Assembly (NCBI RefSeq): GCF_028290645.1 | Contig: NZ_JAQGJL010000372.1 | Coordinates: forward strand, 1 to 37,211 | Direction: 5' to 3' | Length of the DNA stretch: 37,211 nucleotides | Source of the DNA: Devosia sp. | Lineage (GTDB): Bacteria; Pseudomonadota; Alphaproteobacteria; Rhizobiales; Devosiaceae | Part shown: piece by piece, positions 17,581-22,440 of the stretch | How positions within the stretch are numbered: the first letter of the stretch is position 1 | How the letters are laid out: the number at the start of each line of letters is the position of its first letter | Notes under the pieces: model-generated | Seen by the model: only the letters and a program-made list of their open reading frames with translations | Told to the model about the DNA's origin: nothing | Databases searched by the model: none | Made by a program: the position numbers and the translations under genes

Positions 17581-17718
17581 AACTGCCCCTCACCCGGCGC
17601 TACGCGCCACCCTCTCCCTCAAGGGGAGAGGGAAGAAGGCGAGATTGTGCCACGCTCTTCCCCTCTCCCCTTGAGGGAGAGGGTGGCTCGGCGAAGCCGA
17701 GGCGGGTGAGGGGCAGTT
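17581..17718. repeat. Type B extragenic palindrome
   Basis: aactgcccctcacccggcgctacgcgccaccctctccctcaaggggagaggg ... ccctctccccttgagggagagggtggctcggcgaagccgaggcgggtgaggggcagtt. Confidence 0.88.
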
Positions 17719-17725
17719 CAGACCC

Positions 17726-18854: not shown

Positions 18855-20093
18855 CTACAATTCCCCGTCCAACCGCTTCACCGCCTCCAGCAGCACCGCA
18901 GCGCCAAGCGCCACGTCGGCTGTTTCGGCATGTTCTTCCGGCGTGTGGCTGCGGCCGCCGAGGCAGGGGATGAAGATCATCGCTGCCTTGGTGATCCGCG
19001 CCATCCAGGCCGTGTCGTGCCCGGCGCCCGACGCCAAACGGCGGTGGCGCGCGCCCACGGCCACGGCTGCCGCGTCGAGCGTATCAAGCACGAAGGGGTC
19101 GCAAGGCGTTGGGAAATTGTCGGAAATGGTCAATGGGGGTTCTATGGCGACGCCGGTCTCGGTGCTCACCGCCTCGGCCAACGCGCCGAGTTCCGCAACG
19201 AAAGTTTCCATGTCCTCGCGGCGCTCGGCCCGCGCGTCGACCAGGAGGCGCGCCTGCGACGGCACAACATTGGCCGCCCCCGGCTCGATCGAGAATTCAC
19301 CCACAGTCGCGGCGAAGTGAAAATCTCCCTGGCTCAGTTCGGTCCCCAGCACCTCGATGCCCAGCACCAGCCGCGCCGCCGTCGCCAGTGCATCCTGGCG
19401 CGAGCCCATTGGCGTCGTCCCGGCATGGTCGGCGCGGCCGTTGACGATGATCTCGATACGCGTGATCCCGGCGATCGCGGTGACGACGCCGATATCGAGA
19501 TGCCCGTCCTCGAGCACCGGCCCCTGCTCGATATGCAGCTCGAGGAAGGCCACGATGTCGTCGCGCTTCTCCTGCCGCAGCGGATTGCCTCCGACCTCGG
19601 CGATGCCCTCGCGCAGGCTGAACTCGTCGACCTCGCGATCGAGCCATGCCTCCGGCCGCACACCGGCCATGCCGCGGCTGCCGACGCAGGAGACGCCGAA
19701 GATCGACACTTCCTCGGCGAGGAAATCGACGATCTCGAGGTCGTGGCGGAGCTCGATGTGCTGGTCTCGCAGGGCGCGGGCCACTTCCAGCGCCGCCGAG
19801 ACCCCGGCGATGCCGTCGAAGCGGCCGCCATCGGGGACGGTGTCGGAGTGGGAGCCGAGCATGATGGTGCCCTGTCCCAAGTTTCCCGGCCGGCGGCCGA
19901 TGAGGTTGCCGGAAGCATCGATACGTGTCTCGAGCCCCGCCGCCTCGAAGCGGCGGACGAGCCATTCGCGGCCGCGGAGGAACATCGGGGTGAAGGCGCG
20001 GCGAGTGTAGGGGCGTCCGGGTTCGGTGATCTCGGCGAGGGAGGCGATGTCCTCGGCGATGCGGGCGGGGTTTGTGGAGAGATTGGTGGCCAT
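18855..20093 (-). CDS. M20-family Zn-dependent N-carbamoyl-L-amino acid hydrolase / allantoate amidohydrolase-like
   Basis: LGSHSDTVPDGGRFDGIAGV, DFLAEEVSIFG, ELHIEQGPVLE, GRADHAGTTPMGSRQDAL, ASGAGHDTAWMA. Confidence 0.9.
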   Translation of the reverse strand: MATNLSTNPARIAEDIASLAEITEPGRPYTRRAFTPMFLRGREWLVRRFEAAGLETRIDASGNLIGRRPGNLGQGTIMLGSHSDTVPDGGRFDGIAGVSAALEVARALRDQHIELRHDLEIVDFLAEEVSIFGVSCVGSRGMAGVRPEAWLDREVDEFSLREGIAEVGGNPLRQEKRDDIVAFLELHIEQGPVLEDGHLDIGVVTAIAGITRIEIIVNGRADHAGTTPMGSRQDALATAARLVLGIEVLGTELSQGDFHFAATVGEFSIEPGAANVVPSQARLLVDARAERREDMETFVAELGALAEAVSTETGVAIEPPLTISDNFPTPCDPFVLDTLDAAAVAVGARHRRLASGAGHDTAWMARITKAAMIFIPCLGGRSHTPEEHAETADVALGAAVLLEAVKRLDGEL

Positions 20094-20614
20094 CAAGAGC
20101 CCCCACCCCTGTCCCCTCCCCGCAAGGGGGAGGGAGACGATGGAGCCGCGTGCGCCGTGTCAGGCTCTGCCGTTTGCTCGAAAGGCGTGGTTGCGATGGC
20201 TGATCGTAAGGGTCTCCTCCCCCCTTGCGGGGGAGGGACAGGGTGGGGGGAGTTCGACACACGAGATACCGCCCCAAGCACGCCGGCAATCACCTCGTAC
20301 ACGCCATCTGCGTTTTGCAGCACATAGTCATTGGTGAACCGGAGCACGTGAATGCCCCTGCCCCGCATGTACTCGTTCCGGTTAGCGTCGTAAGCCACGG
20401 CCCGGTCCGTCCCATGCGTCTCCCCGTCCATTTCGACAATGACCTTCGCGTGCAAACAGGCAAAATCTGCGTAGTAGGGACCAACCTGCTGCTGCCGCCG
20501 AAAATGCCAGCCCTGCTCGCGGAAATGCCAGAGTATGCGCCACATGGCACGCTCCGGTCCCGTCTGATCCCGGCGCAGTTTCCGGGCGCGTTCAATGCTC
20601 AAAGACACCCCCAC
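20093..20614 (-). CDS. DUF559 (VSR-like PD-(D/E)XK endonuclease fold) protein; termini encoded by flanking palindromes
   Basis: SIERARKLRRDQTGPERAMWRILWHFREQGWHFRRQQQVGPYYADFACLHAKVIVEMDGETHGTDRAVAYDANRNEYMRGRGIHVLRFTNDYVLQNADGVYEVI is a full DUF559 core; exact start (GTG/TTG at about 20602-20614) uncertain. Confidence 0.8.
   Translation of the reverse strand: MGVSLSIERARKLRRDQTGPERAMWRILWHFREQGWHFRRQQQVGPYYADFACLHAKVIVEMDGETHGTDRAVAYDANRNEYMRGRGIHVLRFTNDYVLQNADGVYEVIAGVLGAVSRVSNSPHPVPPPQGGRRPLRSAIATTPFEQTAEPDTAHAAPSSPSPLRGGDRGGGS
20098..20251. repeat. Type A palindrome pair at the 3' end of the DUF559 ORF
   Basis: cccccacccctgtcccctccccgcaagggggagggagacg (20098-) and inverted gggtctcctccccccttgcgggggagggacagggtggggg (20210-). 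Confidence 0.9.
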
Positions 20615-20647
20615 CCCTGTCCCCTCCCCGCAAGGGGGAGGGAGACG
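20605..20647. repeat. Type A palindrome arm at the 5' end of the DUF559 ORF
   Basis: acacccccacccctgtcccctccccgcaagggggagggagacg. Confidence 0.9.
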
Positions 20648-20696
20648 TCAAGCTTGCTCCGAGTGTAAGGTTGCTCGTACCAACTCATCCCCTCCC

Positions 20697-20751
20697 TCTG
20701 CTCGCCGTTTGATGCCGTCGCAAGCCCGGGGCGCGTTCAGTGCTCAAAGAT
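20697..20751 (-). pseudogene. Shorter, more degenerate DUF559 N-terminal remnant
   Basis: gtttgatgccgtcgcaagcccggggcgcgttcagtgctcaaagata aligns with gtctgatcccggcgcagtttccgggcgcgttcaatgctcaaagaca at the intact gene start. Confidence 0.65.
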
Positions 20752-20880
20752 ACCCCCACACCCCTGTCCCCTCCCCGCAAGGGGGAGGGAGACGCTTGCA
20801 GTTTGCTCCGCGCTTGAGGTTACGAAGACAGATCGGGAGGGTCTCCTCCCCCCTTGCGGGGGAGGGATAGGGTGGGGGGT
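20752..20880. repeat. Type A palindrome pair
   Basis: Arm at 20752-20794 and inverted arm at 20840-20880, separated by cttgcagtttgctccgcgcttgaggttacgaagacagatcgggag. Confidence 0.9.
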
Positions 20881-20982
20881 ACTCTTTACGCACCACCCCA
20901 TCACCTCGCTCCGGGCTCTTGCCGCACGCTCCGGCCCTGGCTGATCCCGCCGCAGTTTTCTTGCACGTTCAATGCTCAAAGA
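20881..20982 (-). pseudogene. N-terminal remnant of a DUF559 gene (internally deleted copy)
   Basis: acgctccggccctggctgatcccgccgcagttttcttgcacgttcaatgctcaaagag matches the 5' end of the intact gene (acgctccggtcccgtctgatcccggcgcagtttccgggcgcgttcaatgctcaaagac); translates as SLSIERARKLRRDQPGPERA. Confidence 0.8.
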
Positions 20983-21025
20983 GACCCCCCACCCCTGTCC
21001 CCTCCCCGCAAGGGGGAGGGAGACG
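20983..21025. repeat. Type A palindrome arm
   Basis: gaccccccacccctgtcccctccccgcaagggggagggagacg. Confidence 0.9.
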
Positions 21026-21087
21026 CTTACAGTTTGCTCCGCGCGCGAGGTCACGAAGACCGATCCGGAGGGTCGCCCTCCGCACCA

Positions 21088-22440
21088 TCACCTAACCTCC
21101 GGCCGAACCCACCGCCCTGCCCCGGGCTCCGCCACCTTCGTCCCGTCGAACACCTGCCGCCCGCGCAGCCACGTCCCGGCCACGGTCCACGGCAGCTCGA
21201 TGCCGTTGTAGGGGCTCCACCCCACGACATTGTGCCCCGAGCGCGCGGCGTCGTAGACCTGCGGGCGGTCGACCAGGACGGTGATGTCGGCGTCCTTGCC
21301 GGCCTCGAGCGCTCCCTTCTGGCTGAGGCGGAAGTGTCGCGCCGGGTTTGCCGCCATCAGCTTTGCCGCCCAGGTCAGCGAGATGCCGCGCTGCAGCGCG
21401 CCCTTGACGAATAGCGGCACCATGGCTTCGAGCCCCGGCACGCCGGAGGCATTGGCAAGCATATCCGGGTTGGTCTTCCTGTCCTCCGACCAGCTGACGT
21501 GGTCGGTCGAGACCAGCGTCACGTTGCCGGCCGCCACCTGCCGCCACAGCGCCTCGACTTCGGCGCGGGGGCGGATCGGGGGGTTGATCTTGGCCTTGCC
21601 GCCGAGACGGCGGACGTCGTTTTCCTCGTCGAGCGTCAGGTAGTGGATGCAGCATTCTATACTGGCGTGGAAGCCCCGCGCCCGGTAGTCGGCGGCGATG
21701 TCGTAGCCGCGGCTGAGGGAGCAGTGGACGACGTGGGCGTCAGCGCCGGTCGCTGCACCGGTTTCGTAGATTTCGAGCGTCGCCAGCAGCTCGGTCAGCG
21801 GCGGGCGGCTGAGGCCGTGGGCGCGCCAGTCGGTGATGCCGGAGGCCTTCACCCTGGCCATGGCGGCGCGGACGCTTTCGTCGTCTTCGTTGTGAACGCC
21901 ACCGGTCAGCCCCGTCATTGCCACTTCGATGAACGCTTCCTGAAGCAGCGGCGGCGAGATGCGGGGAAAGCGCACCGGGTCCGTGCCGAAGGTCGAGAAC
22001 TTGAACGCGGCGACCCCTGCTGCCGCCTGCTCGGCGATGCGGGTCGCGCCCTCCTCCGGGTTGATCGTGCCGTAGAGCGCGAAGTCCACCCGGGCCTGCG
22101 GCTCGGCGTGAGCGACCTTTCGCTCCACCGCTGCGGCCGAGCAGACGAGGTCGCCTTCGTCATAGGGCATGTCGACAATGGTGGTGACGCCGCCGGCTGC
22201 CGCGGAGCGGGTCGACCAGATGAAATCCTCCTGGTTGCGCTGGCTCAGCGAGTGCACCTGCGCGTCGATGGCGCCGGGGAGGATCAGGGCCTTGCCGAGC
22301 AGATGCCGTTCATGCGCATGCGGGGGCGTCCCCTCGCCGACATGGATGACCTTGCCGTCGCGCACCGCGACATAGCCGTCCTCGATGATCAGCGAGGGCA
22401 GCACCACGGTGCCGGCGAGGACGAGATCGAAATCGGACAT
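21088..22440 (-). CDS. Hydantoinase/dihydroorotase/allantoinase-like amidohydrolase
   Basis: ILPGAIDAQVHSLSQRNQEDFIWSTRSAAAGGVTTIVDMP...AAFKFSTFG...LVSTDHVSWSEDRK...NPARHFRLSQKGALEAGKDADITVLV. Confidence 0.85.
   Translation of the reverse strand: MSDFDLVLAGTVVLPSLIIEDGYVAVRDGKVIHVGEGTPPHAHERHLLGKALILPGAIDAQVHSLSQRNQEDFIWSTRSAAAGGVTTIVDMPYDEGDLVCSAAAVERKVAHAEPQARVDFALYGTINPEEGATRIAEQAAAGVAAFKFSTFGTDPVRFPRISPPLLQEAFIEVAMTGLTGGVHNEDDESVRAAMARVKASGITDWRAHGLSRPPLTELLATLEIYETGAATGADAHVVHCSLSRGYDIAADYRARGFHASIECCIHYLTLDEENDVRRLGGKAKINPPIRPRAEVEALWRQVAAGNVTLVSTDHVSWSEDRKTNPDMLANASGVPGLEAMVPLFVKGALQRGISLTWAAKLMAANPARHFRLSQKGALEAGKDADITVLVDRPQVYDAARSGHNVVGWSPYNGIELPWTVAGTWLRGRQVFDGTKVAEPGAGRWVRPEVR

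Follow-up and report, generated by a model that had tools for sequence, protein, structure and literature searches.

The closest described counterparts of the locus reported here are the REP/REPIN-RAYT (TnpA_REP) systems, or REPtrons (PMC3116915, PMC2817692, PMC3733652). As in REPtrons, we find short palindromes whose copies number in the tens to hundreds, arranged in inverted doublets that form long hairpins, together with a single-copy partner gene that lies between its cognate palindromes, and with several such gene-palindrome pairs per genome. Alphaproteobacteria also carry CGTC-tagged REPs, high-copy palindromic doublets for which no dedicated transposase has been reported, with stems that begin with A/T residues and with CGTC/CCA ends (PMC3733652). 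On the protein side, the nearest studied relative is Caulobacter VsrA (CCNA_02930), a DUF559 protein needed for the SOS response in cells without the ScmA methylase and interpreted as a mismatch-repair nuclease (PMC12907096).

A DUF559 gene among type-A palindromes

The stretch of DNA that we analysed (the window, 37,211 nucleotides) is contig 386 of a 4.36-Mb Devosiaceae assembly. An earlier note, made from the letters of the window, had placed a DUF559 ORF between palindromes of one type, called type A (CCCCACCCCTGTCCCCTCCCCGCAAGGGGGAGGGAGAC and its reverse complement). This was confirmed: in a profile search, the minus-strand ORF at 20093-20614 matches PF04480 over residues 8-111 (E 7e-30; 103.5 bits against a gathering cut-off of 20.6) and is hence a DUF559 member, and type-A palindromes were located on both of its sides. 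The 173-aa reading of the ORF takes in palindrome-encoded tails: the upstream palindrome supplies its N-terminal MGV, and the downstream pair of palindromes its last ~60 aa. The DUF559 domain itself spans ~20282-20605. The locus reads REPIN, DUF559 gene, palindrome, scrap of the gene, REPIN, second scrap and half REPIN, set between two amidohydrolase genes:

17583-17721, no strand: complete REPIN that belongs to another subtype, AACTGCCCCTCACCC...CCCTCTCCCTCAAGGGGAGAGGG ... GGGTGAGGGGCAGTTC; subtype among 84 sites counted
18855-20087, minus strand: hyuC-like amidohydrolase of the M20 family; borders the insertion site on the left
20093-20614, minus strand: DUF559 ORF as called, extending into palindromes at both ends
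20100-20250, no strand: REPIN-like pair downstream of the gene, one type-A palindrome at 20100-20138 and its inverted copy at 20212-20250
20267-20605, minus strand: DUF559 gene core, predicted Vsr/EDxHD-fold nuclease domain (PF04480, AlphaFold2, Foldseek, invariant residues)
20605-20650, no strand: upstream type-A palindrome (20605-20646), a half unit with its tail toward the gene start; spacer remnant to about 20680
20705-20750, minus strand: 5' end of a second DUF559 copy, now a remnant (80% identical, E 2e-5)
20752-20880, no strand: second REPIN-like type-A pair, 20754-20796 and 20838-20880; ssDNA fold -40 kcal/mol, z -5.3
20924-20982, minus strand: 5' end of a third DUF559 copy, now a remnant (86% identical, E 8e-14)
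20984-21077, no strand: third unit, consisting of a type-A palindrome (20985-21025) and a spacer half; 91% identical to 20754-20846
21088-22440, minus strand: amidohydrolase/hydantoinase; right border of the insertion site (the two border genes nearly abut in the relative G102)

The arms of the downstream pair are 39 nt long and 85% complementary, and the tail of the inner palindrome faces the gene. The upstream palindrome folds into a single-strand hairpin of -11.6 kcal/mol, and the third unit is a pair whose inverted partner is lost. The REPIN at 17583-17721 is read through as ORF tails such as SPSRGEG/SPLEGEGG.

The two shortened recurrences of the gene that had been noticed before are genuine, the E-values of both 5'-end scraps being significant in a 4.36-Mb genome. 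Their interpretation as MITE-like deletion derivatives of an autonomous element holds only in part: the derivatives are real, but a genome-wide search found no further copy of the scraps anywhere in the own genome, which rules out dispersed MITEs. Since they are confined to this locus, the scraps are tandem remnants, and the gene-less units that are dispersed are REPINs without DUF559 sequence. The junction motif described as preserved in all three copies is common to them as ttcaatgctcaaagaNac(c)cccac, but the middle copy reads ttcagtgctcaaagatacccccacacccc. An Rfam search of the window found nothing, and PADLOC and PHROG searches returned weak, uninformative matches.

The AlphaFold2 model of the protein (pLDDT 90) gave Foldseek matches to N. 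gonorrhoeae NGO0050 (3hrl), to the catalytic domain of I-Bth0305I (3r3p, E 3e-5) and to Vsr (1cw0), and residues E18, D47, E58, D60 and H64 were invariant among 52 sequences. The predicted fold and the conserved acidic and histidine residues thus place it among the Vsr/EDxHD nucleases. dN/dS values of 0.04-0.19 indicate purifying selection on DUF559, and the protein is therefore maintained.

Enrichment, polarity and gene-specific pairing

Each palindrome forms a C-rich hairpin, CCYYTCCC-loop-GGGRRAGG, to which an asymmetric tail is attached (for example GGGTGAGGGG). Tails point toward the gene (G-rich upstream, C-rich downstream) at 85 of 154 DUF559 genes and show the reverse orientation at 3; in gene-less pairs, the REPINs, they point outward, and these pairs form strong ssDNA folds (-40 and -52 kcal/mol, z -5.3 and -6.5). 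Genome copy numbers were obtained from pattern searches. The type-A core occurs at 158-164 sites in the own genome versus 0-1 for a reversed-pattern control, which excludes chance, and many of the 158 type-A sites stand in inverted pairs 50-80 bp apart. Alongside them the genome holds 84 type-B and 20 type-D sites (controls 0), and all five of its DUF559 genes lie directly between palindromes, each gene with its own type.

To assess how general this is, DUF559 loci were gathered without regard to palindromes (80 from GTDB genomes, 29 more from genomes of the family, and others added), and the 400 bp before each gene were compared with the 400 bp after it, a score of at least 20 counting as a shared repeat. 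Both flanks shared a repeat in 83/113 genes of the first set and in 116/155 of an enlarged non-identical set. The corresponding figures were 11/727 for control windows laid out identically within these loci but displaced by 1.5 kb or a multiple of it (Fisher p = 2e-96), and 0/29 for small GNAT (acetyltransferase) genes of the same bacterial family (p = 3e-15). The enrichment in relatives on which the earlier note had staked its proposal is therefore present. It persisted with relatives removed (<60% identity, no shared neighbours; 30/44 two-sided), and an independent hairpin-motif test found the motif on both sides of 54/156 DUF559 genes versus 0/734 controls. Palindromes and small genes both occupy intergenic DNA, and the GNAT genes are the sole gene-call-based control for genes in gaps; one could thus suspect that palindromes gather in any gap, so that a small gene lying there merely seems flanked. 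Given the control counts (0/29 and 11/727), the 85:3 orientation bias and the 30/44 of the non-redundant set, we regard such an artefact as extremely improbable.

The two-sided pattern holds in Rhizobiales, Sphingomonadales, Hyphomonadaceae, Xanthomonadales and Betaproteobacteria, and single distant examples were found in S. meliloti, N. gonorrhoeae and one Deinococcus; a second Deinococcus gene has a shorter two-sided match, with a score of 18 where the threshold is at least 20. One-sided or no palindromes were seen in 39/155 genes. One-sided examples come from Azospirillum, Synechocystis and a Sphingomonas suf operon, and E. coli ycjD, also a DUF559 gene, has no flanking palindromes. The arrangement recurs in most of the Proteobacteria genes tested and in both Deinococcus, and DUF559 therefore looks like the missing partner, and is perhaps the mover, of a widespread kind of bacterial palindromic repeat for which none had been known.

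Some of these loci lie inside operons. In the Deinococcus hpa operon, DUF559 with flanking palindromes occupies two different gaps in two species (L213, L214), on the strand opposite to the catabolic genes. On a Sphingomonas plasmid (L217) the gene separates sufB from sufC, has a single palindrome on its upstream side, and is possibly a domesticated copy in the suf operon.

Pairing between gene and palindrome was examined in 18 genomes with several DUF559 genes. A gene's own two flanks matched each other in 33/46 cases, versus 18/229 when its flanks were compared with those of another DUF559 gene in the same genome. Across genomes, the palindromes of non-syntenic pairs matched in 1% of cases at 35-40% DUF559 identity, in 51% at 60-70% and in 91% at 70-80%. 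Palindrome similarity hence rises with protein identity, but permutation bears this out incompletely: with all pairs p was 0.0005, much of it from syntenic orthologues, and a stricter within-genome permutation limited to non-syntenic Devosiaceae pairs gave a suggestive p of 0.07. We do not rely on the permutation signal, because it is largely syntenic and falls to this value once synteny is removed.

Copy number tells a related story. Across the family (136 genomes), genomes with more type-A sites tend to have higher best scores for a DUF559 of the window's type (rho 0.53, or 0.68 within the genus only, before any correction for phylogeny), and median type-A copies are 43 in genomes with any DUF559 and 2 in those without. 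RAYT (PF01797, Y1/HUH) is absent from the own genome and from 131/136 relatives. A passenger model, in which another enzyme moves the palindromes and DUF559 is mere cargo or a frequent co-travelling neighbour, would suit the fact that palindromes far outnumber DUF559 genes and that some palindrome-rich genomes have no detected DUF559 (G021, G060, G053 and G132, with 194, 87, 45 and 45 type-A copies). Yet at most loci no gene other than DUF559 was found between the palindromes, each DUF559 lineage has its own palindrome type, Y1/RAYT is missing from those 131 relatives, and the median drops to 2 palindromes where DUF559 is missing; on balance we consider this model unlikely. For the exceptions G021 and G060, recent gene loss, an assembly gap or the help of another enzyme are the options.

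Polymorphism at orthologous gaps

We compared the gap between the hydantoinase and M20 genes (hyd-M20) among relatives whose M20 gene is 83-89% identical. The gap is empty in G102, where the genes almost abut; it holds a type-A REPIN and no gene in G089 and G096, a REPIN of another type in G092, G095 and G099, and a palindrome-DUF559-palindrome unit in G088. In G089 and G095 (L202 vs L203) the different REPIN types sit at the same point with similar short flanks, which suggests that one type was converted into the other in place. G089 also carries the closest homologue of the gene in the window (73% identity), at an unrelated place.

The mmsA-hyuC-hydA operon offers a second comparison. Its gaps are independently empty (gap 1 in G042, gap 2 in G000) or filled by DUF559 genes of different lineages; between G088 and G099, mmsA and hyuC are about 97% identical, while the gap-1 DUF559 genes are only 58% identical. 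The operon serves pyrimidine degradation, and its two gaps are both hot spots (L221, L121, L115, L124, L125, L130, L131, L132). Gap 2 of G092 contains about 680 bp without palindromes or recognisable DUF559.

A common DUF559 unit was also found in unrelated surroundings at three loci, L117 and L118 of one genome and L129, where similarity starts and stops at the outer palindrome edges. Presence and absence at an otherwise similar target allele were thus observed in the hyd-M20 and mmsA-hyuC-hydA gaps, at the level of the genus and not of the strain. A strain-level search of Sinorhizobium replicons revealed no empty site, the Azospirillum DUF559 locus occupies the same place in all seven replicons compared, with no polymorphism, and no target-site duplication was identified. 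Read from sequence, the site comparisons show gain, loss and relocation, and do not tell which enzyme brought them about.

These data bear on two further accounts. Genes and palindromes could simply diverge together at fixed sites with little movement, as the many syntenic pairs among close DUF559 genes and the constant position in the seven Azospirillum replicons would have it. This vertical co-divergence fits poorly with orthologous gaps that are empty or gene-less, with lineage swaps between near-identical neighbours, and with the finding of one unit in unrelated places, including two within a single genome, and we hold it to be very unlikely. Alternatively, DUF559 could be a host repair or safety nuclease, acting in Vsr-like mismatch repair or hairpin processing, and the palindromes could be regulatory, for instance operators or terminators. 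The Vsr-like fold and the strong purifying selection agree with such a role, as do the ties of Caulobacter VsrA to the m5C methylase ScmA and to the DNA-damage response (PMC12907096). It would leave unexplained, however, why each paralogue has a different matching palindrome, why copies are dispersed, and why orthologous gaps show presence, absence and lineage replacement, and it seems to us quite improbable.

A candidate mover and its known counterparts

We favour, with a probability of roughly 60%, the reading that GC-rich REPIN-like palindromes between genes have DUF559 genes as their dedicated partners and are spread through cutting by the nuclease and copying during repair. It builds on the observed architecture, enrichment, gene-specific flank matching, polarity and site polymorphism, on the occurrence of the same lineage at unrelated sites, and on purifying selection and a nuclease fold taken from a predicted structure; recognition, cleavage and copying by DUF559 are what we infer from them. 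The core of the earlier note's idea, a REP/RAYT-like system in which DUF559 replaces the Y1 transposase, has survived both attempts at refutation: flanking palindromes are enriched in relatives, and syntenic sites are polymorphic there, being empty, filled by a REPIN only, or by a REPIN plus DUF559.

The unit consists of a palindrome, a single nuclease gene and an inverted palindrome, each nuclease lineage having its own palindrome variant and gene-less pairs being dispersed in tens to hundreds of copies. In the proposed mechanism, the nuclease would recognise its cognate palindrome, as duplex or as ssDNA hairpin, and cut at or near it, and repair of the cut would then copy in palindromes, either alone or together with the gene. 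The copying could proceed by ectopic homing from one dispersed palindrome to another, or by single-strand transposition of the IS200 kind; the former would explain the repeated use of the same gaps as well as the same unit at unrelated sites. In the window, a unit would have entered the hydantoinase-M20 gap and been tandemly repeated, after which two of the three gene copies would have decayed.

On a broader scale, we see about an even chance that a third large class of interspersed palindromes exists in bacteria, mobilised by DUF559 nucleases and not by any transposase, with members across Proteobacteria and Deinococcus. If true, palindrome-DUF559-palindrome units would be self-linked elements, with their gene-less REPINs spreading alongside, which suggests a repeat-spreading route via a homing-type nuclease in place of a transposase. 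A concrete partner gene is now named for one untagged palindrome class, and the question is therefore testable with one purified protein and one oligonucleotide; for a nuclease family still labelled 'unknown function', there is a function to look for.

The system has in common with REPtrons its inverted doublets in many copies and a partner gene flanked by the cognate palindrome. Unlike in REPtrons, the partner is a DUF559 protein (PF04480) of predicted Vsr/EDxHD fold and no HUH Y1 transposase, and the palindromes are of CCYYTCCC type with no GTAG tag, none being present beside the hairpins in the window sequence. With both the HUH transposase and the tag missing, we reject membership of REP/RAYT for a system that works alike. 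The CGTC REP superfamily was rejected as well: ATTCCCGC...GCGGGAAT lies within 130 bp of 0/156 DUF559 genes, and type-A and type-B stems begin with CCC. A CGTC-type REP doublet, CGTCATTCCCGCGAAGGCGGGAA, is found downstream of the M20 gene in G086 (L209).

RIME (Rhizobium-specific intergenic mosaic elements) and other untagged palindromes likewise lie between genes as double palindromes of ~100 bp. One such double palindrome, which may correspond to RIME1, flanks the S. meliloti DUF559 gene (L216). To our knowledge, no partner gene has been described for RIME, and we found none for RIME or other untagged palindromes in the open-access papers searched. The same set of open-access papers holds no earlier report of a link between DUF559 and palindromes. 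Caulobacter VsrA has the DUF559 domain in common with our protein, and the text of PMC12907096 does not mention palindromes.

Finally, DUF559 resembles the EDxHD homing endonuclease I-Bth0305I and Vsr in the fold of the catalytic domain (3r3p, E 3e-5; 1cw0), and, as with homing endonucleases, the nuclease gene adjoins its presumed target sequence. Unlike with homing endonucleases, no group I intron or intein was seen and DUF559 has no extra DNA-binding domain; it is surrounded by palindromes of a dispersed family, not by a conserved gene site that occurs once.
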